IMG/VR virus record: IMGVR_UViG_3300027969_000334
Location: 1 to 29,073 of that record
Reading direction: 5' to 3' (one strand)
From: a virus
DNA length: 29,073 nt
In this document: piece after piece, positions 4,811-29,058 of the stretch
Numbering within the stretch: position 1 is the first letter of the stretch
Layout of the letters: each line of letters starts with the position of its first letter
Position numbers and translations under genes: made by a program
Notes under the pieces: model-generated
Databases searched by the model: none
The model's input: only the letters and a program-made list of their open reading frames with translations
Told to the model about the DNA's origin: nothing

Positions 4811-6093
4811 TGGCTTCTAGTCAACAATTGAGATATGCTGGCGATGTCAGCATTAATAAAGTTAAGATAACAACTCAAAAAGGTTTTGGGCAGGATATCA
4901 CTGGACAGGTTTTAAATGTACAGTTTTATGAAGATTTGTTCTCACCATTTATAACTGGTAGTATAATCGTTAAAGAATCATTAGACTTAATTAATCTATT
5001 CCCATTTATTGGTGAGGAGTATCTTGAGTTAGATATTACAACTCCAGGTTTAGCAGGTAAAATTAATGGTCTCAAAGGGACATATTACATTTACAAGTTA
5101 ACAGATAGAGAATTACTAGGCGATCGTTCAGTAATCTATCAATTACATTTCGTTTCAGTTGAAGCCATAACTGATCTTAATAAAAAGATTAGTCGTGTAT
5201 TCGGTGATAAAGTTTCAGATTTAGTTAAACCATTTTTTACAGATAAAGTTATCGGTTTAGAAACTAAAAAGAAAGTATATGTTGAACCAACATTAAGCAA
5301 TGTAAAATACATTTCTAATTACTGGTCTCCAGTTAAAAATATTCAGCACTTATGTGAACATGCAGTGAACATGAATAAGACCCCCAACTATGTTTTCTTT
5401 GAGAACAGAGATGGCTTTTATTTTATTAGTTTAGAAATGTTATATCAAGGTAAGATGTATCAAGAGTTTACCTATGACAAATACAGTCGTGATAAACTAC
5501 CAAATGGAAAAGATGTTCGAAATGTAAACGAAGACTTTAGAAGAATTACAGATATTAGCATTCCAGTAGCATATGATTACATGGATAGAATTCGTAATGG
5601 TATGTTATCTTCTAGACAAATAATGTATGATGTCACTAAGAAAACATATGCTGTTAAAAACTATAATATGTTTGATAGATTCCCAGAACAAAAACATTTA
5701 AACAAGTTTCCAATAAATTCTGACAAAGCAATCTTTAGAGCAAACTCTACTCTTATAAATTTAACAAAAGATTATGGCAACTTTAATGGATTTGAAGATG
5801 TCACTAATTCTAAATCATTTCAAGAACGAATTTCAACAATGAAGTTGGCAGAAGCCAATAAACTTCAAATTACAGTTCCAGGAAGAACTGATTATACTGT
5901 TGGGCAAAAGGTTGGTGTGGTTTTAAATAGAATAGAACCATTTTCCGCAAAGGACACAAATACAACAGACAAAATGTTTTCTGGTTACTATCTAATTGCA
6001 GCTATCAATCATCATGTTGATAGAGAAAAACATGAATGTCATATGGAACTAATTAAAGAATCATCTCAGATGGATATGAATAGGAACAAATAA
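4810..6093 (+). CDS. 27: Baseplate hub subunit gp27-like
   Basis: A 427-residue protein (T4 gp27 is 391). The N-terminal tube-like barrel is recognisable in VLNVQFYEDLFSPFITGSII and VKESLDLINLFPFIGEEYLE. A hinge follows with VSVEAITDLNKKISRVFGDK, then NYWSPVKNIQHLCEHAVNMN and a second domain with NYVFFENRDGFYFISLEML. Towards the end TVPGRTDYTVGQKVGVVLNR and GYYLIAAINHHVDREKHECH fit the hub proteins of contractile systems. A trimer of gp27 forms the torus that links the hexagonal baseplate to the trimeric gp5 spike, which is encoded immediately downstream with a TAATG overlap. Confidence 0.85.
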   Translation: MASSQQLRYAGDVSINKVKITTQKGFGQDITGQVLNVQFYEDLFSPFITGSIIVKESLDLINLFPFIGEEYLELDITTPGLAGKINGLKGTYYIYKLTDRELLGDRSVIYQLHFVSVEAITDLNKKISRVFGDKVSDLVKPFFTDKVIGLETKKKVYVEPTLSNVKYISNYWSPVKNIQHLCEHAVNMNKTPNYVFFENRDGFYFISLEMLYQGKMYQEFTYDKYSRDKLPNGKDVRNVNEDFRRITDISIPVAYDYMDRIRNGMLSSRQIMYDVTKKTYAVKNYNMFDRFPEQKHLNKFPINSDKAIFRANSTLINLTKDYGNFNGFEDVTNSKSFQERISTMKLAEANKLQITVPGRTDYTVGQKVGVVLNRIEPFSAKDTNTTDKMFSGYYLIAAINHHVDREKHECHMELIKESSQMDMNRNK

Positions 6094-9000
6094 TGAATTT
6101 TTACTATGGTGTTGTAGAGAATAGAATTGATCCGTTAAAACTTGGTCGTTGTCAAGTCCGAGTAGTTGGGCTACACACGCATGATAAATCTCAGCTACCA
6201 ACAGCAGATTTACCATGGGCACATCCGATGCAGCCAGTTACTTCTGCCGCAATGAATGGTATTGGTAGTTCTCCTATTGGTCCAGTTGAAGGTACATCAG
6301 TAATTGTTATCTTTGCTGATGATGATAAACAACAACCAATTATGATTGGTACAGTTGGAGGAATTCCATCATCACCAGCACCTATTGATGCAGATGATAA
6401 CACACCAATTACTTCTGCCGTAAAAGTAGAAAAGATAGAACTAAGAACTGTTCCTGGACCAACCAGTGGAGTGCAATTAACATTTTATGATCCAGAATAT
6501 GGTTCTACTAACTTAACAAAAGATTTAAAGCCAAACATGAAAGTTGTGGCTTTTGGCATTCCAACAGAAACTACTATTGTTTCTATTGACAGTGGTACTA
6601 AAATTACAATTAGTAAACCAGTTATAAAATATCAAGAGAACATTGTAAATTTTGAGGCTGCACCATCTAACCTAGATGCGATTCAGAAAACTAAAGTAAA
6701 TGATTTTATCGATAGTATAAATCCATTTAAGGCTAAAGATCCAGTAGCCAAGACTCCTGTAAATTCATCTATACCCACTGTACCACCACCAAAAGAATCT
6801 CCAAACGCTGCTCTTTCTACGCAAGGTATTAAAGCACTTCTTGCTGCAGCAGATAAAGTTGGTTTAACAACTAAAGAACAAAAGTGCGCATTGTTAGGTA
6901 TTTGTGGTGGTGAGAGTCGTTGGATTACACCAAATGATGAAAAATATCAATATAATAAACCTGCATATTTAAAACAAATTTTTTCATTTGCAACAGATGC
7001 AGAAGCAGAGAAATATTCTAATGCCGTTAAAAAGGGTATGACTCGTTATGAGTTTTTCTCATGGGCATATGGACCAAATGGTAATGGAAAGGCTCTTGGA
7101 AATAAAACCAATGATGAAGGTGGTAAATATTATGGAAGAGGATATATTCAGCTAACTGGTAAACCTAATTATGAACTATACCAGAAAGAAGCTGCAAAAT
7201 ATGGATATAATCTTAATATTGTCAATGATCCAGAATCCATAAACACTGACATTAATGCAGCTGCTGTTATTGCTGCATTATTCATTAAATTAAGAACTCC
7301 AGCTGGAGTTAGTCCTAATGCTCATCCTGGATATTTTTATGCAGCGAAAGCGAGGGTAGGTAATAATACTGCAGAAATTGCAGCACTTAAAAAATCTTAC
7401 TATGAATACTTTTATGGATATACATCTGATGTAGGTGCAGAAAAAGATGCTGGACCAGCAAAAATAGAATCTCCACCAGTAGGTGTCGTTACCTTACCAC
7501 AACCATCTGCAGAGTCAGTTAAAACTGGATCTGATACGATTGGATTTAGAGACCCAAACAATAAGTATCCGCTAAAAGATTATGTTGGTGAACCTGATAC
7601 CAATCGTTTAGCAAGAGGAATTATAGAGGGCACTGTTCTTAAGAAAAAAGATGTATTAAGAAAACGAACAGTACCAAAAGCCAATAATGGAGGATTTTGG
7701 GATCAACCAGAAGCAGCGTATGGTGCAGAGTATCCATTCAATAAAGTATTCGAAACAGAATCTGGGCATGTACAAGAATTTGATGATACTCCAGGCTATG
7801 AAAGAATTCATACATACCATCGCACAGGAACATTTAGTGAAATAGATCCTTCAGGTTCTCAGATTAATTATATTATTGGTGATAATTATATTATCATGGA
7901 TAAAAATGGTTGTGTATCTGTTGCTGGAGAGTTGAACATTACAGTAGATGGCAATACAAATATTTACGCTCGCAATGATGCTAATGTGCAGGTGGCAGGT
8001 AGTGCAACAGTTAATGTTGGTAATACATTAACTGTTGGAGTATACAGTGATGTTAATATGGCTGTTGGTGGTAACTTTAATCTTAAAGTTGCTGGTGACT
8101 ATAATGTACAAGCTGCAAATATAAATCATCTAGCCGATAACTACCTTAGTCTTAGTGCAAAAGAGTATAGTCTCGTTTCATCTGGATCTATCAACATGCT
8201 CGGCTCCAGTAAATTTAATCTCCAGTCTAGCGGTAGTATGGATATTAAAGTTGGTGGAATACTTTCTGCAGATTACACTCAAGGACAATTTGGTAATGGT
8301 GCAGCTGGAACTGAAACTGTTGTTGTACAACCAGTTACTCTCACTCCACCTGAAATTGGATTGCCTACATTTAAAACTATACCATTTGAAGTGCCAAAGG
8401 AAAGATCGTTTGAAGAAAAAACTGCTGCAGAAACTCCAGATGATTACGATACTGCCGAAGGTCGCAGATTATTAAACAAACAACAAATAAAAGAAGGACA
8501 AGAGACACCTGCTCCAGTCGTTGCCGTAGAAGCAGCACCTCCAACTAAAGGTACAAAAACAAATATCCCTGTTGATTGTCAGATTATCTACAATACTAAA
8601 AACTTTACCAATGATTTTAGAATGTCAACTAATTTTATTTTAGGTAAGTTAATGGAGGGTGGTGTCGGTGGTAAACATAAGTTAGTTGATCAGATGTTAA
8701 AAGATACTAAAAATGGTCCAGATAAGTTGTATACTGTTTCAGAAATTGTATGTAATCTTGCTCAGACTTGTCAAAATATTTTAGAGCCAGCATTAAAAGT
8801 TTTACCTAGAGGCATAGATGGTTTAGGTAAAACATGGACAATTAACTCAGGATATCGTTTAAAAGGATTAACTGGTGGTGAATCTCCGACATCTGATCAT
8901 CCTAAAGGAAGAGCATTTGATATTGGAACTATGCCAAAAACTGGAGATTTTGAACAATTCAAAAGAAATTATGATCTTATTGTACAGTTAGAAAAAATTC

Positions 9001-9185
9001 TTCCATATGATCAACTAATTTTAGAATATCAGTATCCAGGTACATGCTGGATACATGTATCTTATAACGCAAATTCTAGAAGAAAACAAGCATTTACTAT
9101 GGTAAACCATCAACCATATAAGGGTAGTATAACTGGTGGATTTGTTCTGCTTGAAAACATCCCAGCACCACCTAAGAAACACTAA
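6093..9185 (+). CDS. 5: gp5-like central spike with GH19-like lysozyme and M15-like peptidase domains
   Basis: A 1030-residue spike protein, much longer than T4 gp5 (575). Residues 1-95 are the OB fold (FYYGVVENRIDPLKLGRCQV, then GTSVIVIFADDDKQQPIMIG and TVGG). Residues about 237-445 are GH19-like: acidic E274 in CGGESRW and YYGRGYIQLTGKPNYE around Q353. Residues about 597-723 are a beta-helix with alternating short strands, such as NVQVAGSATVNVGNTLTVGV. The C-terminal domain (about 815-1015) has an M15-type peptidase pattern: SGYR at 919, H936-x6-D943 in SDHPKGRAFD, and H988 in WIHVS, plausible zinc ligands. Pro-rich linkers separate the parts. The T4 GH24-type lysozyme is replaced by GH19, and the peptidase is extra. 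The spike would pierce and digest the cell envelope. Catalytic activity is inferred. Confidence 0.85.
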   Translation: MNFYYGVVENRIDPLKLGRCQVRVVGLHTHDKSQLPTADLPWAHPMQPVTSAAMNGIGSSPIGPVEGTSVIVIFADDDKQQPIMIGTVGGIPSSPAPIDADDNTPITSAVKVEKIELRTVPGPTSGVQLTFYDPEYGSTNLTKDLKPNMKVVAFGIPTETTIVSIDSGTKITISKPVIKYQENIVNFEAAPSNLDAIQKTKVNDFIDSINPFKAKDPVAKTPVNSSIPTVPPPKESPNAALSTQGIKALLAAADKVGLTTKEQKCALLGICGGESRWITPNDEKYQYNKPAYLKQIFSFATDAEAEKYSNAVKKGMTRYEFFSWAYGPNGNGKALGNKTNDEGGKYYGRGYIQLTGKPNYELYQKEAAKYGYNLNIVNDPESINTDINAAAVIAALFIKLRTPAGVSPNAHPGYFYAAKARVGNNTAEIAALKKSYYEYFYGYTSDVGAEKDAGPAKIESPPVGVVTLPQPSAESVKTGSDTIGFRDPNNKYPLKDYVGEPDTNRLARGIIEGTVLKKKDVLRKRTVPKANNGGFWDQPEAAYGAEYPFNKVFETESGHVQEFDDTPGYERIHTYHRTGTFSEIDPSGSQINYIIGDNYIIMDKNGCVSVAGELNITVDGNTNIYARNDANVQVAGSATVNVGNTLTVGVYSDVNMAVGGNFNLKVAGDYNVQAANINHLADNYLSLSAKEYSLVSSGSINMLGSSKFNLQSSGSMDIKVGGILSADYTQGQFGNGAAGTETVVVQPVTLTPPEIGLPTFKTIPFEVPKERSFEEKTAAETPDDYDTAEGRRLLNKQQIKEGQETPAPVVAVEAAPPTKGTKTNIPVDCQIIYNTKNFTNDFRMSTNFILGKLMEGGVGGKHKLVDQMLKDTKNGPDKLYTVSEIVCNLAQTCQNILEPALKVLPRGIDGLGKTWTINSGYRLKGLTGGESPTSDHPKGRAFDIGTMPKTGDFEQFKRNYDLIVQLEKILPYDQLILEYQYPGTCWIHVSYNANSRRKQAFTMVNHQPYKGSITGGFVLLENIPAPPKKH

Positions 9186-9194
9186 GGAAACATA

Positions 9195-9491
9195 ATGGGT
9201 GGCTTTGCTAAAGAAGGTGATTTGTCTCAAGGTATAGATGGACCAGCTACTGCTCTAACCTATAAGAACCAAGCAGTTAAGACTTTTGTTCAAGGAATGA
9301 GAATAGCACTTGTCGGAGACCAATACCAGCCTCATCAGGTAGGGGTGGTTACTCATAGTGCTGCACAACGAGAAATTACAACTGGATCTTCAAAAACATT
9401 CTTTGAAGGTAAGGCAGTAGCCAGATATGGTGATTCGATCGCCGATGGCGATAAAGTTGGTGGCGAAGGTTTTAACACTTTCATAGAATAA
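9195..9491 (+). CDS. PAAR-repeat spike tip protein (gp5.4-like)
   Basis: A 98-residue protein starting MGGFAKEGDLSQGIDGPATA. Its Gly-rich turns, the H47/H54 pair in QPHQVGVVTHS, TTGSSKTFFEGKAVARYGDS and the IADGDKVGGEGF end fit PAAR proteins. These fold into a small cone that sharpens the tip of the VgrG/gp5 spike, usually around a metal ion. It lies 9 bases after gp5, with AAGGAA as Shine-Dalgarno at the end of the gp5 gene. No cysteine is present, so the usual three-His/one-Cys metal site is not fully visible. Confidence 0.82.
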   Translation: MGGFAKEGDLSQGIDGPATALTYKNQAVKTFVQGMRIALVGDQYQPHQVGVVTHSAAQREITTGSSKTFFEGKAVARYGDSIADGDKVGGEGFNTFIE

Positions 9492-17045: not shown

Positions 17046-20000
17046 ATGGCTATCGATTTTAACACCGAACCGTATTACGACGACTATAACGAATCTAAAA
17101 GATTCTTGCGTATTCTGTATCGTCCAGGATATGCTGTTCAAGCACGAGAACTCACACAAATGCAGACTATTCTGCAGAATCAAATTTCTCGTTTCGGTAA
17201 CCATGTATTTAAAGAAGGCTCTTTGGTAATCCCAGGTGCTATTGGTTTAGATACTAAAATCGGATATGTTAAATTAGCATCCACATATGGTAATGTTTTA
17301 GCAGATTCTGTAGTTGCAGAATTTAATGGATTAACTATCGAAAATGCCTCTGGAGTTCAGGCACAAGTTATTCATTATAGTTCATCTTCAGGCGCAGATC
17401 CTGCCACATTCTTTATTCGTTATTTAAATTCTGGTGACAATAATGCCACAAAAACATTTTCTAATGACGATGTTTTAACTAATTTGGCTGGAACAAATTC
17501 TGCTGGTGACGCTGTAGCTGCAGGTACATATACGGTTCAAGCAGCATCATCCTCTTCTACTGGAGTAGGATCTATTGCCACTATACAACAAGGTGTTTAT
17601 TATATCAAAGGGCACTTTGTTTTAGTTCCAGAACAAAAAATTATTCTGGACAAATACACAAATACTCCATCTTATAGAATTGGTTTAGCTACAACAGAGT
17701 CTGTTGTTACAGCTGAAGAAGATACTACTCTATTTGATAATGCACAGAACTCATTTAACTATGCTGCTCCAGGTGCTCATCGTTATTACATTGATGCTGT
17801 ACTAACTAAACTTTCTACTGACAGCACTTCAGATACTGATTTTATTGAGTTGATTCGTGTCAACGCTGGACAAACTCAAAAGATTGTTGACAAATCAGAG
17901 TACTCATATCTAGAAAAAGAATTTGCTCATAGAACATATGATGAATCTGGTAATTACACAGTTAAGAATTTTGAGATTGATGTTCGTGAATATAGAAATA
18001 ATAATCGTGGTGCTTGGGTAACAGGACAAGTTTATTTAACTGGTGATGTTGTAACCAATTCTGGTAAAACATATGTTGCTAAAAATTCTGGAACATCACT
18101 AAACAATACACCTCCAACTCATACATCTGGACTTGTTTATGATGGTTCATCTAGCGGTTCAGGTACAACAGGTATTCAGTGGGAATACAATGAAACTCCT
18201 TACTACAACAGAGGAGTTTACACACCAGCAGTTGGCTCTAATCTTTCAACTAACCAAGCAAATGAGGCAAAATTAGCTATTGGTTTGGAGCCAGGAAAAG
18301 CATATGTGCAAGGTTATGAAATTGAGAAACCAGCAACTGAATATGTCACAGTACAAAAAGCAAGAGATTATGTTTCTGTAGAGAATTCAGTTATTCCAGC
18401 GACTGTTGGTAACTATGTTTTAGTAACTAATTTAAATGGTGCTCCTGGAGTTAATAGTTTAACTCAAGTGACTCTTTACAATAGAGTAACATCAGCTGTT
18501 GGAACTATTCCATCTGGTGCTACTGCAGTTGGTACTGCTCGTGTTCGTTTTATGGAATACCATAATGGAACCATCGGTGCACAAACTGCTATCTACAAAC
18601 TAGGTTTATTTGATGTTCAAATGACATCTGGATATGACTTTAATAGAGATGTTAAATCTGTTTACCATGTTGGTTCTTCTGATGATGTAAACTTAAATTT
18701 CACTGCAGATATTGAAGGTACTGCTACAGTAGGATCTGGAACATTAGTTCGTTTAATTGGTTCTGCTACTGCATCAAATTCTCAAACAATTACTGGTACT
18801 GGAACTTCTTTCCAGACAGATCTTAAAGTTGGTGATTATGTTTTCTTAGGCACTGCTCTAAGAAGAGTCACCGCAGTTGGATCACAAATTCAAATAACTG
18901 TTGATTCTAATATAACTATTACTGGTGTGACAATTGATAGAGTTGAAACTCAAATTTATGAGCCAGAAAACGCTTCTTTATTGTTTCCGTTTCCATACTA
19001 TGCAATTAAATCTATAAGTGATACAAATTATACTGTATATGAAACTTTTACAGGTACAGTATCTTCTGGATCATTTAGTATAACAACTTCTTCTGGTACT
19101 ATGGCTTCTGCTGCAGATCAAGATAATTATACTATTATTGATACTAGCGCAGCATCAGGTGGTGCAGTAATTACACCAGTGACCATCACTCCATCAGGTT
19201 CCACTACCACTATTACTGTTAATACTTCTTATAATGGTCGTAGTGTTTTTGTTATCGCTGCAGTAAATAAGAGCGGTGCATCATTAACTAAGAAAACGAA
19301 AACATTAGTTCCTAATGCAACTAAGACATTTACCACTCAAGCGACTGGTCAGGTAACTCAACTGTTGCTTGGTAAGGCAGATGGATATCGTTTGATTTCT
19401 GTTAAAATGAAATCTGGCACATTTGCATCTTCTAGTGGAAGTTACGCTATCGATATTTCAGATCGTTTTATCTGGGATGATGGACAAAGATCTACTCACT
19501 ATGATCAAGCAAGATTAATTCTTAAAAATTCATATGCTCCACCAGAAGCACCATTTGAGGTAACATTTGATTACTTCACTCATGGCGCAGGGGATTACTT
19601 CACTAAAGACTCATATGTAGACATTAGTGATTATGGTGCACTTCCTTATTTCCAAGGTATTGCATTAAGAGATGCTATAGATTTTAGACCAAGAATTGAC
19701 GATGCTGGAACATCATATACTGGAAGTAACGCATCTATAACATTACTACCAAAGCGTGGTATTGATATTACAACTGACTTCTCATACTACCTAGCAAGAA
19801 AAACTAAAATTGCTATAGATTTTGGTGGTACATTCTTTGCAATTAATGGTGTGTCATCTTTAAATCCTGGAGAGCCACTAGACCCAACACTTGGTTTGGT
19901 TCTTTATAATCTAACATTAGAGCCATACACATTCGGAACATTAAATAATAATGTTCAGGTTAATCGAATCGATAACAAACGATACACTATGCGTGATATC

Positions 20001-23000
20001 GGTAAATTAGAAAAACGAATTGATAATCTAGAATACTATACTTCATTATCATTGCTAGAACAGCAAACAGAATCTCTAAACATTACAGACGCATCTGGTT
20101 TAGACAGATTTAAAAATGGATTTATTGTAGATAATTTTGCAGGACATAATACAGGAGATACTTCTTCTCCAGACTACTTGTGTTCTATTGATATGGAAAG
20201 AGCAGAACTGCGTCCATTCTATACAATGCAGAATGTAAACTTAATTGAATCTGTTTCTTCTGATAGTGCTCGTACTTCTGCAAAATATAAATTATATGGT
20301 GATGTTATTACATTACCTGTAGTTGATCATCTTCCTATTGTTAAACAAGCATACGCTTCTCGTTTAGAAAACATTAACCCATTTGCTGTGTTTACTTTCC
20401 TTGGTGATGTTAAAATTAATCCATCATCTGATGATTGGTTTGAAACTGATCGTCGCCCAGATATCGTTGTTGATATAGAAGGTAATTTCTCAACAGTTAA
20501 AAACTTAGCTGAAAAGGCTGGTGTTCTTGGAACTGTTTGGAATGCATGGCAAACTCAATGGACTGGTGCTCCAATTAGCACTGGCAGTATTAAATACACG
20601 ACTGGTGGTAACTGGGCTTCTCGTCAAGGTGATGTATACTTAACACAAGCTGAATTACAAGCCAAGTTTGGTATTACTTCTTGGGGTAATGCTCGTCAAA
20701 TTACAGTTGAAACTACTGCAACTCAAGTTGGTCAAAACAGAACTGGTGTAAAAACTAGCCTTGTTGAAAAGATTGATAGACAAGTTGTTGGAGATCGTGT
20801 TCTATCGACTGCAGCTATTCCATACATTCGTTCAAGAAATATTCTTGTTCAAATTCAAAAGTTAAAACCTAATACTCGATTCTATCCATTCTTCGATGGT
20901 ATCGATATTTCTGCATATTGCACACCAGCCACTAAAATTGCTTATACTCCAGCTGGTGCTGACGATGCTGCAAAATTGGTTACACATAATAAATTTAATA
21001 CTGAGACTAATGTTGGTTCTAATGCAACTGCAACTACTCGACAAATTAATGGCGACAGCCAAGTTTGTTTAAATCGTGGTGATGTTATTACTGGTGGCAC
21101 ATCTGGTGCAACTGCAGTTGTTGTTGGTAAAGAATATAACATCGATGATAATACATACGCTTTGTTTGTATCTAATGTTATAGGAACATTTTCTACCACA
21201 GAAACTATCACAGCATCTAACATATTAGGTTATGCATCTGCTGCTACTGGAACTGTTGGAACAGTTACTACTAAAGCATCGGGTAGTTCATTAATCTCCA
21301 ACTTTAATGGAGATTTAAATTTACTCTTTAATATTCCAAACAACGATTCATTAAGATTCCGTTGTGGTAGTCGTGAATTAAAATTAGTTGATGCTACAAC
21401 TGCGACAGGAGCGTTCACTTCTCGTGCACGAGCAAATTATCGTGCAGAAGGTATTATTGAAACTAAACAAAGAACAGTTCATGCAGTTCGTAATGCAGAG
21501 TTAGCACAAGAACCACTCGAAGATAATCAAGTTATTACACAAACTTCTGAACGAGTTGTTGCTGATACTGGTTGGTGGGATCCACTTGCCCAAACATTCT
21601 TAATTGAACAAAAGGGTGGATGTTTCTTATCTAAAGTTGATGTATTCTTTGCTACTAAAGATACAGCAGTTCCAGTCACTATCGAAATTCGTGAAGTGGT
21701 TAATGGTTATCCTGGAAAACGAGTTCTTCCATTCTCTCGTGTTACACTAAAACCAGAGTATGTTAATATTTCTGAAAACACAGTATTGCTGGATGGTGTA
21801 GATGTTGCTTCTTATGATACAGCTACTACATTCACATTCCCTAGCCCAGTTTATGTTCAAGAAAATACTGAGTATGCAATCGTTTTAGCGTCAGATTCAA
21901 ACAATTATAAAGTTTGGATTTCTCAAGTTGGTGATCAGATGCCTGGAACTTCTCGTACTATTTCTGAGCAACCATATCTTGGTTCATTGTTTAAATCTCA
22001 AAATGCTTCTACTTGGACAGCAGATCAAACGCAAGATTTAAAGTTTACAATTTATCGTTGCCAATTCCAAACTAATCAAGATTCTAATGTAGTGTTTGAG
22101 AATGATACTTTGCCAAATGTAACTTTAGTATCAGATCCATTTGAGACTAGATTACCTGCTAGTGGAACAAACTATAAAGTTCGTGTATGGCACGCAAATC
22201 ATGGAATTCCATCAGGTTCTAAAGTTACTATTAGTGGTGTTTCTGCTAATGTCAATGGAATTCCATATGCACAATTTAATACAACACATACAATCAGTGA
22301 TGTCGATTTAGACAGCTATTGTATCACTTTGGCTGGTGCTGCAACTTCTTCTGGATATGGTGGTGGTTCTGCTGTTAGAGCAACTCGACATGTTCAATAT
22401 GATGCAGTACAACCATTAGTTCAAGTTCAGTCTTTCTCTGAAACTCCGCTTAATTTCCGTCTAAAGGGTATTAGTGGTAAATCTGTAGATTCTACTACTC
22501 AATCTGCTTATACTCGAGATGCATCTTACGCTGGTGTGCTAGTTAACGAAACTAATTATTTTAGTTCTCCAAAGATGATTGCGTCTTCACAAAATGAGGC
22601 TGACACATCATATGGTTTAAGTGGTGATAAATCAGTGCAATTCAATATTGTTATGAGCACAACTAATGATGCGCTATCTCCAATTATTGATACTCATAGA
22701 ACCAGTTTAGTTGCTGTTCAAAATAAGGTTAACAATCCTTCAGAAACTAATATGAATGTGGCAAATTTAGATTATAACACAATCTTATCTGCAAACACAA
22801 ATATTGCATTTACTGCAGCGACACAAAGAATTAGTTCTTCTAACTCTACTGCTAAAGCTGCATTGGCTACTTTAACTGTTGGCAAATATCTAGTTGTTAC
22901 TGGTGACACTCCAACAGCAAATAACCAAACATACCTTATCACTGAAGTTGCTTCCGATGGCTCTTATGTAACATTGAGTGGACCAAATGCAATCCAAGAC

Positions 23001-23420
23001 GATACTGCTGGTGATGCCATTACCTTGGTTCAAAGAGAAAGATTTGCTTCTGAAATTGCTCCAACAGAAAGTTCTACATATAGCAAATATGTGACCAAGA
23101 AAATCAATCTGGCAAACCACTCTAACTATCTAAGAGTTAAATTTGCAGCTAATATCCCTGCTGATGCTAGCGTTGAAGTATGGTATAAAACTAATATCGT
23201 TGGTTCAAACACTGCATTTGAAAATGCAAAATACACTCAGATGACAGTAGATTCTATTGTTCCTAATTCTTCAAATCAAGAAGGTAAGTTCTATGATGCT
23301 TCTTATTCTTTAGATGACTTAGTGTCATTTGATGCTATTCAAATTAAACTTGTTATGAAGTCTACTAATAGTTCTGAAGTTCCAAGAATTAAAGATCTTC
23401 GTGTTATTGCTTGCGTATAA
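17046..23420 (+). CDS. Giant DUF4815-type baseplate/tail structural protein
   Basis: A 2124-residue protein, the largest in the window. The N-terminus is typical of DUF4815 proteins of marine T4-like phages: IDFNTEPYYDDYNESKRFLR, ILYRPGYAVQARELTQMQTI and LQNQISRFGNHVFKEGSLVI. Later conserved stretches include AIDFGGTFFAINGVSSLNPG, DIGKLEKRIDNLEYYTSLSL and WWDPLAQTFLIEQKGGCFLS with VTIEIREVVNGYPGKRVLPF. These are separated by Thr/Ser/Gly-rich beta regions, and a PTHTSG module lies near residues 355-385. Its place after gp8 suggests a functional replacement for the T4 gp9/gp10/gp11 peripheral baseplate proteins, probably anchoring fibres. That role is inferred. It ends in a TAATG overlap with the next gene and has its own late-promoter-like octamer upstream. 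Confidence 0.8.
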   Translation: MAIDFNTEPYYDDYNESKRFLRILYRPGYAVQARELTQMQTILQNQISRFGNHVFKEGSLVIPGAIGLDTKIGYVKLASTYGNVLADSVVAEFNGLTIENASGVQAQVIHYSSSSGADPATFFIRYLNSGDNNATKTFSNDDVLTNLAGTNSAGDAVAAGTYTVQAASSSSTGVGSIATIQQGVYYIKGHFVLVPEQKIILDKYTNTPSYRIGLATTESVVTAEEDTTLFDNAQNSFNYAAPGAHRYYIDAVLTKLSTDSTSDTDFIELIRVNAGQTQKIVDKSEYSYLEKEFAHRTYDESGNYTVKNFEIDVREYRNNNRGAWVTGQVYLTGDVVTNSGKTYVAKNSGTSLNNTPPTHTSGLVYDGSSSGSGTTGIQWEYNETPYYNRGVYTPAVGSNLSTNQANEAKLAIGLEPGKAYVQGYEIEKPATEYVTVQKARDYVSVENSVIPATVGNYVLVTNLNGAPGVNSLTQVTLYNRVTSAVGTIPSGATAVGTARVRFMEYHNGTIGAQTAIYKLGLFDVQMTSGYDFNRDVKSVYHVGSSDDVNLNFTADIEGTATVGSGTLVRLIGSATASNSQTITGTGTSFQTDLKVGDYVFLGTALRRVTAVGSQIQITVDSNITITGVTIDRVETQIYEPENASLLFPFPYYAIKSISDTNYTVYETFTGTVSSGSFSITTSSGTMASAADQDNYTIIDTSAASGGAVITPVTITPSGSTTTITVNTSYNGRSVFVIAAVNKSGASLTKKTKTLVPNATKTFTTQATGQVTQLLLGKADGYRLISVKMKSGTFASSSGSYAIDISDRFIWDDGQRSTHYDQARLILKNSYAPPEAPFEVTFDYFTHGAGDYFTKDSYVDISDYGALPYFQGIALRDAIDFRPRIDDAGTSYTGSNASITLLPKRGIDITTDFSYYLARKTKIAIDFGGTFFAINGVSSLNPGEPLDPTLGLVLYNLTLEPYTFGTLNNNVQVNRIDNKRYTMRDIGKLEKRIDNLEYYTSLSLLEQQTESLNITDASGLDRFKNGFIVDNFAGHNTGDTSSPDYLCSIDMERAELRPFYTMQNVNLIESVSSDSARTSAKYKLYGDVITLPVVDHLPIVKQAYASRLENINPFAVFTFLGDVKINPSSDDWFETDRRPDIVVDIEGNFSTVKNLAEKAGVLGTVWNAWQTQWTGAPISTGSIKYTTGGNWASRQGDVYLTQAELQAKFGITSWGNARQITVETTATQVGQNRTGVKTSLVEKIDRQVVGDRVLSTAAIPYIRSRNILVQIQKLKPNTRFYPFFDGIDISAYCTPATKIAYTPAGADDAAKLVTHNKFNTETNVGSNATATTRQINGDSQVCLNRGDVITGGTSGATAVVVGKEYNIDDNTYALFVSNVIGTFSTTETITASNILGYASAATGTVGTVTTKASGSSLISNFNGDLNLLFNIPNNDSLRFRCGSRELKLVDATTATGAFTSRARANYRAEGIIETKQRTVHAVRNAELAQEPLEDNQVITQTSERVVADTGWWDPLAQTFLIEQKGGCFLSKVDVFFATKDTAVPVTIEIREVVNGYPGKRVLPFSRVTLKPEYVNISENTVLLDGVDVASYDTATTFTFPSPVYVQENTEYAIVLASDSNNYKVWISQVGDQMPGTSRTISEQPYLGSLFKSQNASTWTADQTQDLKFTIYRCQFQTNQDSNVVFENDTLPNVTLVSDPFETRLPASGTNYKVRVWHANHGIPSGSKVTISGVSANVNGIPYAQFNTTHTISDVDLDSYCITLAGAATSSGYGGGSAVRATRHVQYDAVQPLVQVQSFSETPLNFRLKGISGKSVDSTTQSAYTRDASYAGVLVNETNYFSSPKMIASSQNEADTSYGLSGDKSVQFNIVMSTTNDALSPIIDTHRTSLVAVQNKVNNPSETNMNVANLDYNTILSANTNIAFTAATQRISSSNSTAKAALATLTVGKYLVVTGDTPTANNQTYLITEVASDGSYVTLSGPNAIQDDTAGDAITLVQRERFASEIAPTESSTYSKYVTKKINLANHSNYLRVKFAANIPADASVEVWYKTNIVGSNTAFENAKYTQMTVDSIVPNSSNQEGKFYDASYSLDDLVSFDAIQIKLVMKSTNSSEVPRIKDLRVIACV

Positions 23421-23650
23421 TGGAAGGTTTTGTTAATATACAGAATAAGGAAGGTCTCGTGAGAGACCTATCCACTGGCGCAGTCATAAATACAAATAGA
23501 ACTGATTATGAGAATTATTTGCAAAGAAAAAATGCAGTTAAACAATTAAATAACCAAATTAAACAAAACTCTGATAAGATCGAAAAAATTGAATCAGATG
23601 TAACAGAGATAAAAGAAATGCTCGCAATGCTTATTAAGGGTAAACAATAA
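23420..23650 (+). CDS. Small coiled-coil structural/assembly protein
   Basis: A 76-residue protein. The ATG at 23420 overlaps the stop of the giant gene (TAATG), which fits the coupling used throughout the operon; an in-frame TTG at 23411 is less likely. The first half (VNIQNKEGLVRDLSTGAVIN) has the 'x-LVRD-x-x-T-GA-(V/I)-N' pattern found in small proteins of marine T4-like phages. The second half, from LNNQIKQNSDKIEKIESDVT to IKEMLAMLI, shows heptad spacing of Ile/Leu/Val, so a short coiled coil is likely. The gene ends in TAATG with the tail fibre, so it may act as a fibre-attachment or assembly factor. Function is not known. Confidence 0.65.
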   Translation: MEGFVNIQNKEGLVRDLSTGAVINTNRTDYENYLQRKNAVKQLNNQIKQNSDKIEKIESDVTEIKEMLAMLIKGKQ

Positions 23651-24867
23651 TGGCAACAATCGTACTTCGCAGTGTAAAGGGCAGTCCGCTAACGATTGCA
23701 GAGGCAGACGCTAACTTTGATAACCTGAATACTGAAGTTGGTTCCAAATTAACAGCATCTGAATATACAGCTGCAGATGTTCTAACTAAAATTAAAACTG
23801 TTGATGGCGCATCTTCTGGTTTAGATGCAGACTTGCTAGATGGATTAAATACTAGCAGCAGCGATACTACTGGAAACTCAGTTGTTACTCGATCTTCTGG
23901 TAATTTCTCTGCTGGAACTATCACTGCTGCCCTAGTTGGTAATGTAACAGGCAATGTAACAGGTAATCTTACAGGAACTGTTACTGGTAATGCAACCAAT
24001 GTATCTGGCATTGTTTCTATTAATAATGGTGGAACTGGAGCAACTACAGAATCTACAGCAAGAACTGCGTTAGGTCTTGGAACTATTTCTACACAAGCAG
24101 CATCTGCTGTTTCTATCACTGGTGGTTCTATTACTGGCATTACTGATCTTGCGATTGCTGATGGTGGTACTGGTTCTTCAACTGCAATTCAAGCCAGAAC
24201 AAACTTGGGATTAACCATTGGTGCTGATATTCAACCATTCTCAAATGAATTAACTAATATTGCAGCACAAACTGGTACTGGACTATTCATTAAAGGTAGT
24301 AGTGGTTCGTACTACCAGAGAACTATTACAGCTGGTAATAATATTTCTATCACTAATGGTGATGGTATTTCTGGCAATCCTACTATTACTGGCTCATCAA
24401 ATCCATCTGTAAATTATATTGTTAAAACAGGTACAAATGGTGAAGGTGATATCGGACAATCTGCAAATAGATTTAATGTAATTTATGGTACTTCCACTTC
24501 TGCTCGATACGCTGACTTGGCAGAAAGATACACAACTGATATTGAATATGCTCCAGGAACAGTTGTTGTAGTTTCTTATGACGAAAATGGTGCTGAAGCA
24601 ACTCAAAGTTTTGGTGTGAGTCAAAGAGTATTGGGTGTTGTTTCTACAAACCCTGCATTTTTAATGAACGATGAAGCACCTGGACAGGCAATCGCTCTCC
24701 GTGGTCGTGTTCCTACTCAAGTAGTTGGTCCAATCAGAAAAGGTCAACCATTAGTTTCTATGCCAGATGGACATGCTGCAAGTGGTGACCATCAAAATTC
24801 TTTTGCCATTGCATTAGAAACAAACTTAGACTCAGGTATTAAATTAGTTGAATGTGTAATTTTATAA
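23650..24867 (+). CDS. Tail fibre protein with conserved C-terminal domain
   Basis: A 405-residue tail-fibre-type protein. The N-terminus (ATIVLRSVKGSPLTIAEADA, NFDNL) resembles baseplate-attachment segments of phage fibres. VDGASSGLDADLLDG (residues 51-65), the N-x-TG repeats GNVTGNVTGNLTGTVTGN (97-114) and two NGGTGATT/DGGTGSST...AR-x-x-LGL blocks are hallmark fibre-shaft motifs. The C-terminal 120 residues start at ARYADLAERYTTD (286-298). They contain GTVVVVSYDENGAEATQS, VLGVVSTNPAFLMN and ALRGRVPTQVVGPIRKGQPL, a compact domain seen at the end of marine phage fibres and probably the tip or a trimerisation domain. The radical SAM gene follows 6 bases after its stop. Confidence 0.8.
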   Translation: MATIVLRSVKGSPLTIAEADANFDNLNTEVGSKLTASEYTAADVLTKIKTVDGASSGLDADLLDGLNTSSSDTTGNSVVTRSSGNFSAGTITAALVGNVTGNVTGNLTGTVTGNATNVSGIVSINNGGTGATTESTARTALGLGTISTQAASAVSITGGSITGITDLAIADGGTGSSTAIQARTNLGLTIGADIQPFSNELTNIAAQTGTGLFIKGSSGSYYQRTITAGNNISITNGDGISGNPTITGSSNPSVNYIVKTGTNGEGDIGQSANRFNVIYGTSTSARYADLAERYTTDIEYAPGTVVVVSYDENGAEATQSFGVSQRVLGVVSTNPAFLMNDEAPGQAIALRGRVPTQVVGPIRKGQPLVSMPDGHAASGDHQNSFAIALETNLDSGIKLVECVIL

Positions 24868-24873
24868 TGATTC

Positions 24874-25953
24874 ATGACAACCCATCCAATTGTCTTTCAT
24901 AAGACAAATGTATCTCTTTCAGATATACTAATCCCAAAAGACTTAGTGGTCTATCTTAAGACCACTGAGACTTGCCAACTCAACTGCCAACACTGTTTTA
25001 CAAATGGTGTCAACGGTAAAAAGATATACTTTAATCCCCAAAGAACTGTAGACTGGTTTGAACGACTCCACGAGGAATGCCCATCTTTTAATGGTGGGAA
25101 TATCACATTCCATGGAGGAGAGCCATTCCTCGCTCCATTAGAAGACATGTACTATGTCTGGGATAAAGTATCAAAGATATTCCCCAATCTTAACTGGTCA
25201 TGTTCGACTAACCTATGTTTCAATCTAACTGAAGACCATATGGAGTTTTTCAGAACTGTTCTAAAGAACGGATTCTGTACTTCTTGGGATAAGGGTATTC
25301 GGTTTGAGAATGATAAACAAGAAGCACTTTGGCGAAAGAATCTTCAAACCCTAGTAGATGCAGGACATAATATTACGCTTAACATTAGTCTGAATAAACA
25401 GCTAATGGAAATGGATACTACTGAGTTAGTTCTGTGGTTGAATACTTTAGGTGTGAATTGGGTTCAATTCGAAAGGCTAACCCATGATGGCTCGGCTCTG
25501 GTAAATACTCACATATTTCCTGCAAATAAAGATCAAGATGACTGGTTTGTTAGAATGCACGAAACCTATCAGACAATAAAACCTAAATATAAAGATGTCC
25601 TATTGGAAGGTGTGTATTCCTCTTTAACTAAAGGTATACATGGTGGAGTTCGTTGTAGAGATTGTGAACAGAAAATCTTTACGATTAATGCCGATGGAAC
25701 TGTGGCTGGATGTCCAAATGCTGCAGTTGGTAATGGGTTCGGAGATATATTCCAACCTATTAGAACTTTGCTCTCCGCCAGAGGAAGAATAAATAACATT
25801 ACATGCGAGATAGAAAGAGACCCTCGTTGCTATACCTGTGAAGTATTTGATATCTGTAATAGCGACTGCCACCAACTGAAATGGCAGGGAGATATCTGTG
25901 CAGCACCAAAAACACTAATGCAAAGGTTAAAGAATGACGACAGCTGGCACTAA
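24874..25953 (+). CDS. Radical SAM/SPASM peptide-maturase-like enzyme
   Basis: A 359-residue enzyme. C34-x3-C38-x2-C41 (CQLNCQHC) binds the SAM [4Fe-4S] cluster, and GGEP is at 81-84. The C-terminal half is a complete SPASM domain. C264, G275 and C280 fit CX9-15GX4C; C319-x2-C322-x5-C328-x3-C332, a gap and C342 fit CX2CX5CX3C-gap-C. That would hold two auxiliary clusters. SPASM enzymes usually modify ribosomal peptides or proteins through Cys, Ser, His or other side chains. The next gene overlaps its end by 20 bases and has a Cys/His-rich C-terminus, the obvious candidate substrate. No clear Shine-Dalgarno precedes the ATG; it may be translated by coupling to the fibre gene. Composition is about 40% GC by line sampling, far above the three genes at 26470-29058. 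Chemistry is unknown. Confidence 0.9.
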   Translation: MTTHPIVFHKTNVSLSDILIPKDLVVYLKTTETCQLNCQHCFTNGVNGKKIYFNPQRTVDWFERLHEECPSFNGGNITFHGGEPFLAPLEDMYYVWDKVSKIFPNLNWSCSTNLCFNLTEDHMEFFRTVLKNGFCTSWDKGIRFENDKQEALWRKNLQTLVDAGHNITLNISLNKQLMEMDTTELVLWLNTLGVNWVQFERLTHDGSALVNTHIFPANKDQDDWFVRMHETYQTIKPKYKDVLLEGVYSSLTKGIHGGVRCRDCEQKIFTINADGTVAGCPNAAVGNGFGDIFQPIRTLLSARGRINNITCEIERDPRCYTCEVFDICNSDCHQLKWQGDICAAPKTLMQRLKNDDSWH

Positions 25954-26470
25954 TATAACGAAAGCAAATATTACTGCTTCGATGGAAGCACTTAAATCAT
26001 TCAATAATGATATTGTTTGGCATAGTGGTAATCAACCATTTCAAACAGATATTACTGGTGGTGATGCTACTGGTTATGCAACTCAAACTTACGCAGATGA
26101 AATTTCAGATACTAATGTAACAGCATCTACTATTACATTAAATTTTATAGCATATGCTAGACTGTTATCTAGAATTAGAAGTGTTCAATTAAAGAAGTGG
26201 TATCAAAATCAAGGTGACCCAAGATCATCTCTGCAATTTGATGGGACGGAAATTACCAATTTAAATACTAACTATGATGCTGTTGCAGCTGGAGTTTCAT
26301 TAAATGGAACTACTCCACCTGCGTCAGAAGGAACAATTTCTGCTTCTGAATTAGATGCATTTGTGAATTCTTTATCAGAAGCTATTACTGCCAATAGAAC
26401 TAATACAGTTCTTATTGAAGAGTTTTATTGCCATAGCAATTGTCATGGTTCATGTCACGGTAGTTTATAA
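25934..26470 (+). CDS. Candidate radical SAM substrate with C-terminal (CHxx)3 tail
   Basis: A 178-residue protein of no family I recognise. The first 165 residues are Thr/Asn/Ala/Ser-rich and contain no Cys. They include WHSGNQPFQTDITGG (29-43), a helical ITLNFIAYARLLSRIRSVQL with KKWYQNQGDPRS (67-98) and ELDAFVNSLSEAITANRTN (139-157). The last 14 residues are YCHSNCHGSCHGSL: three CHxx units holding all three cysteines. AAGG lies 7 bases before the ATG, and the gene overlaps the SPASM gene by 20 bases, so co-expression is nearly certain. Two readings fit: a RiPP-like precursor with a long leader, or a structural tail protein with a modified or metal-bound tip. The CH-x-(S/N) repeats recall the His-Xaa-Ser (Hxs) target peptides of radical SAM systems, though no HxsC or HxsD is present. 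Confidence 0.7.
   Translation: MTTAGTNITKANITASMEALKSFNNDIVWHSGNQPFQTDITGGDATGYATQTYADEISDTNVTASTITLNFIAYARLLSRIRSVQLKKWYQNQGDPRSSLQFDGTEITNLNTNYDAVAAGVSLNGTTPPASEGTISASELDAFVNSLSEAITANRTNTVLIEEFYCHSNCHGSCHGSL
26429..26467 (+). other. C-terminal CHSN-CHGS-CHGS putative core/modification region
   Basis: This is the coding part for residues 166-178. Each unit begins Cys-His, and units 2 and 3 are identical at the peptide level (CHGS) with different codon choices (tgtcatggttca versus tgtcacggtagt). Synonymous divergence between the copies suggests selection on the peptide and not a recent DNA duplication. Confidence 0.65.
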
Positions 26471-27228
26471 TGTATATTGTTCCATTTGATTCTGATACAC
26501 TAAAGAAAATTATTGTTGGTGAAATTGATTCACCAGAAGTTAACTATAAAGATTCGAGTATTAAAGGTAAGAATTTTATTACCTATTTTAGCAATTTAAA
26601 ATATAAAACAATTAATATTGAGTTCGCAGATATTTCTATCGATGAGAAGAAAGAACTATTGTGTGAATATATTAAACACAATTCAACTGCTAATATTGAA
26701 CAGCTATTAGTCACTGTTATTAAAATTGTATTCTATCAAAAAGGATATGATTTATCTTTAGTTGATAAATCAAAATCAGATGCTGAATATCTACAAAAGA
26801 GTATTTTAACTAATTCTGAAATTAAAGAATTCGTTCAAGAAAACGAACAATTAGTTAAAACATTATGTAACATTTTAGACGGAACTTTGCTTTATGCAAT
26901 TAAAAATTTAAATGCATATAAACAAGAAATGGGCGACTTTATCACAAACAATATTGTAGTTGATAAACAAGAAGTAGGAAAGACATTTGTTAATCTATTT
27001 CAAAATGAAACATTCAATTCTCATTATTATGCAGCTATCCCAAAATTTGACGATATAAAATACTTTGAGTTTTATTTCGACAGACCAATTTATTCAGGCA
27101 AAACTTTAATGTCACATATAACTGAGGGTTGTATTATTTTTCCTTTGTTAAGAATGATATTAGAAACACCATTGACTGCTGAACAATTTAAATCTATTTA
27201 CGAAGAGACCAATGTTACATCTCTATAA
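26470..27228 (+). CDS. Unrecognised AT-rich protein, first of three after the (CHxx)3 gene
   Basis: A 252-residue protein of no family I recognise. It begins MYIVPFDSDTLKKIIVGEID, has a Lys/Ile/Asn-rich helical body, and carries a motif-poor C-terminus with FYFDRPIYSGKTLMSHITEG. Three cysteines are scattered (LLCEY, TLCNI, EGCII). There are no signal peptide, membrane segments or known motifs. Its ATG overlaps the previous stop (TAATG), and the next gene starts 17 bases inside it, so it is cotranslated with the CHxx protein. Sampled lines run near 25% GC. It could be a partner protein (scaffold, chaperone or recognition element) for the cassette or an unrelated late protein. Confidence 0.55.
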   Translation: MYIVPFDSDTLKKIIVGEIDSPEVNYKDSSIKGKNFITYFSNLKYKTINIEFADISIDEKKELLCEYIKHNSTANIEQLLVTVIKIVFYQKGYDLSLVDKSKSDAEYLQKSILTNSEIKEFVQENEQLVKTLCNILDGTLLYAIKNLNAYKQEMGDFITNNIVVDKQEVGKTFVNLFQNETFNSHYYAAIPKFDDIKYFEFYFDRPIYSGKTLMSHITEGCIIFPLLRMILETPLTAEQFKSIYEETNVTSL

Positions 27229-28096
27229 TTCCTGTTATGTCTATCCAGACGCAATGTTTGATCCGTCAATTTCTGATTATATCGTAATTGGGCAGAAACA
27301 TAACATTTTAGGTGTTGGAGTTGAAAATAGTTTTTACTATAATAATGTTATAGTGAAACAGTGTTCTGCACGATTTGCGACATATGAAGATTTTATTAAT
27401 GGTAACTTAGTTGAACCACTATGCAGTAATAGAGAAAAGTTTATCATCTATTGTGATGATGATACTATGATCAAATTATTTACTGCAAAAATTAAATCTC
27501 ATATTTTTAATTTTGATGAGTGTTTATTTCTTGAACTTGCAAAGTTATTTGGTGTTCGTTTAAAAATTAAATCAAAGTTAATTGACTCTAGTAATAAACA
27601 AATTATTAGCGATCTCGGCGATAAGTTTATCAATTTAACTAAGTCATCTAATGTTAATAAATTTGAAATGTCTCAATACTGGGTTTGGGAAAACGCTGGA
27701 ATTGAATGGAAGATCGCCAATAGAAAATGTGGTGTTCCAAATAGGCATATTGATATAGTAACGGATCTTATTAATCGTTATGTATATTCTTTCTTTGATG
27801 AAGCACAAGCAAGTTACCTTTCAAGAAAAGAAGATGGCTGGGCAACCGATCCAGTTAATCAGCAATTTAAAACAGTAGTTTCCATGAAAGATCTATACAT
27901 GGAAATGAGAAAAGAATTGGCTTTATTTACGGATCCATTAATTTTGCAATTCTTTGAGACTGGTGTCACTGAAGAACTATTAAACGATCCACAATTTCTA
28001 TTATTAGTATCTAATGATAAAGTAGACACTTGGTTGCTTAGATGGCTACTTAAATTACCACAATCAAAAATTACAGATTTGGATTTAATAGCATGA
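27212..28096 (+). CDS. Unrecognised protein with MxxLYNSCY N-terminus
   Basis: A 294-residue protein of unknown function. The N-terminal MLHLYNSCYVYPD and FIIYCDDD (residues 77-84) recur in the next gene as MIYLFDNCYLST and IIYCD (71-75) at a similar distance, so the two probably share an N-terminal alpha/beta domain and arose by tandem duplication. The middle has QYWVWENAGIEWKIANRKCG, a Trp-rich stretch not shared with its neighbour. No catalytic motif is recognised. It overlaps both neighbours (17 bases upstream, 4 downstream), consistent with one transcriptional and translational unit running from the tail fibre. Confidence 0.55.
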   Translation: MLHLYNSCYVYPDAMFDPSISDYIVIGQKHNILGVGVENSFYYNNVIVKQCSARFATYEDFINGNLVEPLCSNREKFIIYCDDDTMIKLFTAKIKSHIFNFDECLFLELAKLFGVRLKIKSKLIDSSNKQIISDLGDKFINLTKSSNVNKFEMSQYWVWENAGIEWKIANRKCGVPNRHIDIVTDLINRYVYSFFDEAQASYLSRKEDGWATDPVNQQFKTVVSMKDLYMEMRKELALFTDPLILQFFETGVTEELLNDPQFLLLVSNDKVDTWLLRWLLKLPQSKITDLDLIA

Positions 28097-29058
28097 TATA
28101 CCTATTCGATAATTGTTACCTATCAACTACAAATAGTATTGTTGAAACCTGCAAACAAGTTTGGATAGGTACGCACCCGAAACTTCAAGATCCAATGATT
28201 GATCTTACATATGATATTTTACATTCTTATGAAGAGATCGATGACGAGCAACTTGACGAACTATTCAATAAGATTCATCAAGATCACTCAGATGTAAAAA
28301 CTATAATTTACTGCGACATTAATAATTTTATGTATGTTTACTCATACTTCTTTAATGGTGTTTTAGAAAAATCTGCTGTTAAAGAGTTATACTCATTTGA
28401 TATGCTTAAAGAAAATTATAGAATTGGTACATTTGCAATTAGAGATGTAGAGTTTGTTGATTTACCAAAGACTCTGAAAGGAACAGATACATCATCTACC
28501 TTTTCATCTTTATTAACTGAAACTAGAATTGAGATCGCTTTTGCTAATTCAGTTAGAGGTAATGAAGATGCATTTAATTTTTGTGTAGATCGTGCCACAA
28601 AAATATATGATGGATCTCCTGGATTTTGGGAAAGGGATGCGGAGCAGAATTTGCCAGCACTACTTTCAGATGAAGAATTTACAATTGCAAATTTAACTAA
28701 TGAAGAGTTTATAGAATCATTTGTTTCTCAGTTTAAAGTTGATACTGTTATTGCAAATAATATATTACCAATACTACAGGAAAAATTTGGGTTTGATTTT
28801 ATGACTCACTATTTTACTGTTATTAATGATTGTGCAGATTATGAAGAGTTTTGGGAAGATCTTTCTAGTTTAAATAAAGAAGACTTTATTAAAAACTATA
28901 TGCTCGATCCAGCTAAGGCGATACATCTTCAGTTAGTATTTCCCAATCTTTCTAATTTTGATTCAATCAATCCAATTTTTTGGAATCAAATTTTAAAAAA
29001 TAAAAACAATACATCATGGCTTAATAAGTACAAAGTGAAAAATGGAACTTATAATTAA
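28093..29058 (+). CDS. Unrecognised protein, likely paralogue of the preceding gene
   Basis: A 321-residue acidic protein of unknown function. It begins MIYLFDNCYLSTTNSIVETC and has KTIIYCDINNFMYVY at 69-83, echoing the preceding protein. The central part, with CVDRATKIYDGSPGFWERDA (EQNLPALLSDEE), and the C-terminal ENLEE-type acidic helices have no recognisable motif. The start overlaps the previous stop (ATGA). The end carries an overlapping frame that runs off the window. It is probably the fifth gene of the cassette that starts with the SPASM enzyme, but could equally belong to an independent set of host-interaction genes. Confidence 0.55.
   Translation: MIYLFDNCYLSTTNSIVETCKQVWIGTHPKLQDPMIDLTYDILHSYEEIDDEQLDELFNKIHQDHSDVKTIIYCDINNFMYVYSYFFNGVLEKSAVKELYSFDMLKENYRIGTFAIRDVEFVDLPKTLKGTDTSSTFSSLLTETRIEIAFANSVRGNEDAFNFCVDRATKIYDGSPGFWERDAEQNLPALLSDEEFTIANLTNEEFIESFVSQFKVDTVIANNILPILQEKFGFDFMTHYFTVINDCADYEEFWEDLSSLNKEDFIKNYMLDPAKAIHLQLVFPNLSNFDSINPIFWNQILKNKNNTSWLNKYKVKNGTYN

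Follow-up and report, generated by a model that had tools for sequence, protein, structure and literature searches.

Radical-SAM (rSAM) maturation is known from peptide natural products and from a few enzymes. The described systems closest to the locus analysed here are the CXXX-repeat targets and their maturase (TIGR04117/TIGR04115), the thioether-forming ranthipeptide maturases PapB and CteB, the darobactin maturase DarE (NF038005), whose core is of the Trp/Lys type, and the His-Xaa-Ser (Hxs) system with its enzyme HxsB (TIGR03978). SPASM domains carry a seven-Cys pattern, Cx9-15Gx4C...Cx2Cx5Cx3C...C, and the sulfatase motif is CxPxR-like. On the phage side, the fibre tip of T4 gp37 binds iron through an HxH motif (PMC11705849). 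Pelagimyophage genomes differ by radical-SAM cassettes located in the host recognition cluster, or variable tail-fibre region (PMC7029224); these are probably the same kind of locus as ours, and the accessible text of that source gives no target protein or function for them. We found no description of an rSAM gene paired with a protein of the type reported below in the open-licence PMC literature.

The window, i.e. the whole stretch of 29,073 nucleotides that was analysed, contains a T4-like tail module. Beside its tail-fibre genes lies a pair of genes, one for an rSAM enzyme and one for a protein ending in Cys-His units (hereafter CH protein). The relevant features are distributed as follows:

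17046-23420, plus strand: giant T4-like structural protein, 2124 aa (DUF4815; phrog_358)
23411-23650, plus strand: small virion structural protein (phrog_473)
23650-24867, plus strand: 405-aa tail-fibre protein preceding the cassette (phrog_19602 tail fiber, E 1.7e-13)
24874-25953, plus strand: radical-SAM/SPASM enzyme, 359 aa (phrog_1802, E 6e-57)
25934-25953, plus strand: 20-nt overlap of the rSAM and CH-protein genes, suggesting translational coupling
25934-26470, plus strand: CH-tail protein, 178 aa, phrog_35144-like (E 2.6e-6)
26429-26464, plus strand: three CHx[S/N] units (CHSN, CHGS, CHGS), the proposed rSAM substrate, followed by Leu and the stop codon
26470-27228, plus strand: conserved partner protein, 252 aa, phrog_20767, present in 32 of 35 non-redundant cassettes
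27212-28096, plus strand: hypothetical protein, 294 aa, starting MLHLYNSCY
28093-29058, plus strand: hypothetical protein, 321 aa, starting MIYLFDNCY

Further upstream, a candidate PAAR-like tip protein (9195-9491) and a large spike-like protein with muramidase-like or chitinase-like segments (6093-9185) were noticed by eye.

The end of the CH-protein gene was examined at the level of bases and codons. Bases 26429-26467 encode CHSNCHGSCHGSL, with the stop codon TAA at 26468-26470, and the C-terminus of the 178-aa open reading frame (25934-26470) is CHSN-CHGS-CHGS-L, in agreement with the three CHxx repeats that the original prediction had placed there. That prediction also held that the two CHGS units are written in different codons. 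This is half right: TGT CAT GGT TCA and TGT CAC GGT AGT differ in the His and Ser codons, whereas the Cys and Gly codons are identical (two of four differ). The window contains a single match to a degenerate pattern of three consecutive CH.[S/N-like] units, and 100 dinucleotide shuffles of it contain none.

Among 37 aligned CH proteins, some of which were retrieved by the motif itself and which share as little as 17% identity with that of the window, the only invariant columns are the six Cys and His residues of the tail (C166, H167, C170, H171, C174 and H175). Codon usage was counted in a set of 98 distinct genes whose tails have exactly three terminal units, part of them found through the motif: the TGT to TGC ratios of the Cys codons are 49:49, 56:42 and 45:53 at units 1 to 3, both His codons are present at each position, and the Ser positions draw on both codon families. 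Codons thus drift freely under fixed Cys and His residues, which argues for selection on the peptide, as had been proposed from the window alone. Ser or Asn occupies the fourth position in all 98 genes for units 1 and 2 and in 97 of them for unit 3. A frameshift artefact, or homologues lacking the tail, had been named beforehand as observations that would speak against the motif. The tail is no frameshift artefact, since it recurs in frame and at the C-terminus on bodies only 17-31% identical to that of the window, and the aligned homologues retain their Cys/His tail.

The tail varies in its ending and in its number of units. It ends in RGRR or RSRR in most distant relatives and in Leu or Ile in the clade of the window. 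The units mostly number three; tails of four or five exist as well, and two contigs of 240 and 250 kb encode much longer ones. The CH proteins of these two contigs (L432:7832-8515 and L433) carry at least a dozen units with VPV or VV spacers (CHSSCHSNVPV...) and keep the RGRR end. Such expanded tails fit what is expected of an enzyme acting unit by unit, and they would form a natural series on which this mode of modification could be followed. A second type of body consists of two tandem small proteins of 126-137 aa, each with a full CH tail and RGRR (L104:2523-3286, L123, L201, L366 and others); BLASTP of the tandem-pair body against the window body gave no match.

The AlphaFold2 model of the CH protein consists of an alpha/beta body (pLDDT 81, pTM 0.75) followed by a C-terminal tail that is disordered in the predicted monomer. 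No clear match to the body was obtained in a PDB fold search (best Foldseek E 0.1; best Z 2.9 with an rmsd of 3.6 over 85 aligned residues), and a sequence search for a solved relative found none. In a viral structure library, only homologues were recovered at E up to 0.001, including a 296-aa protein of phage Atu_ph07, which is the length of gp170 (see below). The partner phrog_20767 is modelled with confidence (pLDDT 86), and fold searches with it returned no PDB match.

The enzyme of the window has the CxxxCxxC motif (C34, C38, C41), HGGEP at residues 80-84, and cysteines arranged as C264-x10-G275-x4-C280 ... C319-x2-C322-x5-C328-x3-C332 ... C342, which is the seven-Cys pattern of SPASM domains. 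The TIGR04085 domain scores just below its cut-off (23.5 bits versus 27), PF13353 is above its own (25.7 versus 22) and PF04055 is below (22.9 versus 29.5). CxxxCxxC is kept in 22 of 22 aligned rSAM proteins, as are HGGEP and the SPASM-type cysteines. The nearest NCBIfam models are mostly peptide or protein maturases (DarE, DarW, DynA, PapB and, lower, the CXXX-repeat maturase), all far under cut-off. With the rSAM profile, 8vpo, 5wgg and anaerobic sulfatase maturases (anSME) come out as the nearest solved structures. Because the closest models are below cut-off and the closest structures are of this kind, the enzyme is, to judge by its sequence, an rSAM/SPASM maturase-like protein of a family in which we found no characterised member. 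Among related records, two have a single in-frame TAA within the rSAM frame and a third gives an rSAM match split in two pieces, which may reflect sequencing error, an intron or recoding (G033:C1:10799-11803, G055:C1:25604-26608, G046:C1:8281-9332).

The locus was then compared to each of the known systems. The CXXX-repeat targets resemble it by a Cys every four residues near the C-terminus (Cys 166, 170 and 174 in the window) and by an adjoining rSAM maturase. Scores are low for both partners: 13.7 bits for TIGR04117 on L217 (cut-off 50) and 18.4 bits for TIGR04115 on the window enzyme (cut-off 350). Our proteins differ by an invariant His after each Cys, a folded and variable phage body, and their place in a virion module. 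The CXXX-repeat targets are the nearest kind of motif, without membership. PapB and CteB share an rSAM domain with SPASM-type auxiliary cysteines; the PapB model NF047865 aligns to residues 28-334 of the window enzyme with 22.2 bits, below its cut-off of 340, and the structure 5wgg, which we take to be CteB, matches the rSAM profile with E 2.7e-8. Their targets are short peptides, whereas here the target would be the tail of a protein of 115-320 aa. DarE is the best NCBIfam match, near full length (34.7 bits, E 8e-9, cut-off 650), but the CH tail has no darobactin-type Trp/Lys core. The Hxs system is alike in its association with an rSAM enzyme and in the repeated His-x-Ser found within CHxS, a likeness to its target peptides raised by the original prediction. 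This comparison did not hold. The window gave no match to HxsB and 10 records gave none above cut-off; matches below cut-off also occur in 14 of 14 control genomes. At E up to 0.1, the CH protein of the window matches no NCBIfam family, HxsA-type targets included. Hxs membership was consequently rejected, for want of both an HxsB above cut-off and a target-family match. A c-type haem reading of CxxxCH was dropped on reasoning alone, because phage fibres are assembled in the cytoplasm.

The profile of the enzyme aligns nearly full length with the anSME structures 4k36 and 4k37 (E 8e-8, positions 12-318), which makes oxidation of Cys or Ser the main chemical rival: an anSME-like enzyme would convert Cys or Ser residues of the tail to formylglycine, and the tip would then bear a reactive aldehyde. 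We hold this chemistry to be unlikely. The NCBIfam model sulfatase_rSAM reaches 14.4 bits against a cut-off of 349, the tail contains no CxPxR-like motif, and the invariant His would not obviously be needed.

The association between tail and enzyme was measured from both sides. In a search that started from the rSAM enzyme and was blind to the tail, 72 loci were obtained, one too short to score. A CH protein lies within 1.6 kb downstream of the enzyme in 55 of the 71 usable loci. Fourteen of the 71 contigs end within 395 nt past the enzyme, and 55 of the 57 loci with enough downstream sequence have a CH protein. The true exceptions are L083 and L084; in the latter case, three CH proteins are encoded at other places in the record. 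Conversely, a first scan that started from the tail and was blind to the enzyme gave at least 95 C-terminal CH reading frames in at least 87 loci, with an rSAM gene within 1.5 kb upstream in 70 of 87 loci among the matches listed. One locus (L171) was excluded as a chance reading frame. Out of 16 other non-adjacent loci, 13 were searched across the whole record and 11 of them contained the rSAM; L108, L158 and L170 are on contigs already in the rSAM-first set. Overall the whole-record search matched 16 of 18 records. A second scan, using the other Ser codon family, gave at least 104 loci; among the matches listed the rSAM is adjacent in 56 of 104, elsewhere in the locus in 5, and elsewhere in the record in 33 of the remaining 43. 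Among the matches listed, the same record therefore holds the rSAM for 84 of 86 loci in the first scan (the misses being fragments of 32.6 and 6.3 kb) and for 94 of 104 in the second (ten misses, fragments of 5.6-42.7 kb), counts which are not independent events since the scans share contigs and IMG/VR contigs are partly redundant.

As a background, matches to the rSAM are present in just 7 of 50,697 phage records. Five of the seven were inspected (Atu_ph07, Phosso, FLC6, SURPRISE13 and pPa_SNUABM_DT01), and in all five the CH protein follows directly; the sixth, FLC8, has a CH-protein match, and the seventh is a second Atu_ph07 record. A tblastn search for further isolates with two other CH proteins returned only three Burkholderia phages, then none. 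In cellular genomes the CH pattern mostly corresponds to out-of-frame repeats; the tail with its RGRR end is nevertheless found in four cellular-genome loci, one in which the rSAM adjoins the CH gene (L258) and three whose assemblies contain the rSAM (L222, L300, L336). Overlaps of 1-26 nt between the two genes are common in the relatives, and the other pairs are a few nt apart. In the tandem-pair type, the rSAM is several kb off in the same record and does not adjoin the tails.

The overlapping rSAM gene and the company kept by the two genes through very divergent phages support well, on genetic grounds, the original suggestion of a modified core, and we infer that the rSAM enzyme acts on the CH tail. 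Two readings would leave the enzyme without this role. In one, the repeats merely cross-link subunits by disulfides, or dock them, and the rSAM linkage reflects shared inheritance of a module. The genes do lie in a virion module, and the distances of body and enzyme correlate (r 0.66), which fits coevolution and shared descent alike and is expected from shared inheritance alone. The tail is nonetheless present on the unrelated-looking tandem-pair body with the rSAM still in the same record, and His is fixed as firmly as Cys; we regard this reading as very unlikely. In the other, the exposed Cys and His residues, perhaps as a trimer, coordinate Fe or Zn unmodified, and the rSAM acts elsewhere. 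Such a metal-bound tip had been put forward in the original prediction together with a comparison to the iron-binding tip of T4. The strict conservation of six Cys/His residues and the existence of iron-binding phage fibre tips such as that of gp37 are in its favour. The T4 analogy shares the idea of a His-rich distal tip, but it was rejected on spacing: the tail His residues at 167, 171 and 175 are placed i, i+4 and do not form HxH, and the CH tail has Cys and an rSAM partner. The fourth-residue Ser/Asn is also nearly fixed, and the tail is predicted to be disordered in the monomer. Unaided metal binding would leave the near-constant company of the enzyme gene, seen in both tail-first scans, unexplained. 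Metal alone seems quite improbable as the explanation.

The organisation of the cassette was compared across 35 non-redundant loci. Its order is kept. A tail-fibre gene (21 loci) and a cupin gene (26) precede the rSAM and CH-protein genes; phrog_20767 (32) and another hypothetical family (23) come after them, often with a second rSAM behind. Judged by eye, the two hypothetical proteins at 27212-28096 and 28093-29058 probably belong with the 'MxHLFxxxY' proteins that distant cassettes encode (cluster 4). Neither phrog_20767 nor cluster 4 could be linked to a described fold or family. Partner proteins across cassettes (these two in the window, and clusters 4 and 14) start with M-[ILFY]-[HYN]-L-[FYL]-x3-Y, and this shared start suggests one fast-diverging partner family. 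Some cassettes (L142:1133-3862, L145, L202) hold a B12-binding rSAM, 2OG-Fe(II) oxygenases and a protein of about 200 aa, and resemble a multi-enzyme peptide-modification cluster. Concerning the hosts of the cassette, FLC6 and SURPRISE13 belong to Chiangmaivirus; the relatives meant in the phiKZ-related comparison of this genus are presumably RSL2 and RSF1. In the available text of the sources, Chiangmaivirus relatives are phiKZ-related (PMC5468394) and Atu_ph07 has T4 core proteins (PMC6102473). The cassette is therefore spread over unrelated backbones.

Several relatives indicate where the CH protein may be located. Peptidase_S74 is a chaperone domain that trims itself off the C-terminus of phage fibres. 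In L128, an S74 domain (PF13884, 44.8 bits, cut-off 22) directly follows four CH units. L370, 48% identical to L128, is without S74 and ends about a dozen residues past its last Cys, near the place where L128 would be cut. A search for other S74-bearing CH proteins with L128 matched itself only, the S74 case being that of one phage. In L193, on one contig, a Hint domain (PF05203, 57.9 bits, cut-off 32) directly follows four CH units. Either of these self-cleaving domains would leave the repeats as the mature C-terminus. The L193 arrangement lies on the minus strand (L193:1-1239) and may include more than one Hint domain: a second begins with CFKSNIEVLLADG and extends beyond the contig end. A Hint domain seen by eye behind the repeats of L132 was discarded as it had no Pfam support. 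Finally, the accessible text of PMC6102473 reports, by ESI-MS/MS, a cluster of Atu_ph07 virion proteins, 'CDS 170-215'. FDI40_gp170 of this phage is a CH protein and the first gene of that cluster, the numbering agreeing at gp181, gp198 and gp204. We infer, from the cluster boundary only, that gp170 is among the detected virion proteins, which would support a place in the particle for the CH protein. It is probably part of the virus particle, and the appendage tip that the original prediction had envisaged appears likely, given the tail-fibre genes around it, the S74 and Hint domains that follow the repeats in two relatives, and the Atu_ph07 virion cluster.

These observations also bear on the possibility of a free peptide, cleaved from a body that serves only as a long leader and acting as a small toxin or signal. 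An rSAM gene beside a Cys-rich C-terminal repeat is the usual layout of RiPPs, and cassettes of relatives add rSAMs, 2OG oxygenases, a cupin and a B12-rSAM. Yet the would-be leader is variable (mean body identity 0.23 in 35 loci) and the would-be core constant, the reverse of typical RiPPs. A protease or an exporter was not seen among the named cassette genes, the genes lie within a tail-fibre module with the Atu_ph07 homologue at the edge of a virion cluster, and an S74 fibre chaperone stands behind the repeats in one relative. A free RiPP is accordingly given a low probability.

Taken together, the invariant repeats and the near-constant presence of the rSAM across divergent phages suggest that a particle protein receives a chemically modified tip from a phage enzyme. 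The explanation that we favour, and consider reasonably probable, is that of a phage-encoded maturation pair, in which the rSAM modifies the CHx[S/N] units of an exposed virion-protein C-terminus, most likely a fibre or tail tip. The rSAM/SPASM enzyme (24874-25953) would recognise the CH-tail protein (25934-26470) and covalently modify each CHx[S/N] unit, repeat by repeat; phrog_20767 would presumably be an accessory factor. The modified tail would be the exposed end of the virion protein. As to the chemistry, our guess is Cys-to-Ser/Asn thioether rings, because Ser or Asn is constant three residues past the Cys and because of the likeness to thioether-forming enzymes. Each unit would carry a single thioether that links the Cys sulfur to a backbone or side-chain carbon of the Ser or Asn. 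The tail would then form a short, ladder-like series of rings in which the His side chains stay available for contacts with a receptor or a metal, metal binding being perhaps added on top of the modification.

In a broader form, a transferable cassette present in many unrelated phages, from T4-like to phiKZ-like jumbo phages, would equip a particle protein with a repeat-wise rSAM modification at its C-terminal tip, for binding or breaching the host surface; we give this proposal about an even chance. To our knowledge, no enzymatically matured virion tip has been described in any virus. If the proposal is true, radical-SAM maturation would also shape virus particles, and the radical-SAM cassettes that marine and jumbo phages carry would find the explanation they have lacked so far. 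Enzyme and tail would form a testable pair in six isolated phages (Atu_ph07, Phosso, FLC6, FLC8, SURPRISE13 and pPa_SNUABM_DT01), and the constant tip on a variable body would constitute a new host-attachment element.
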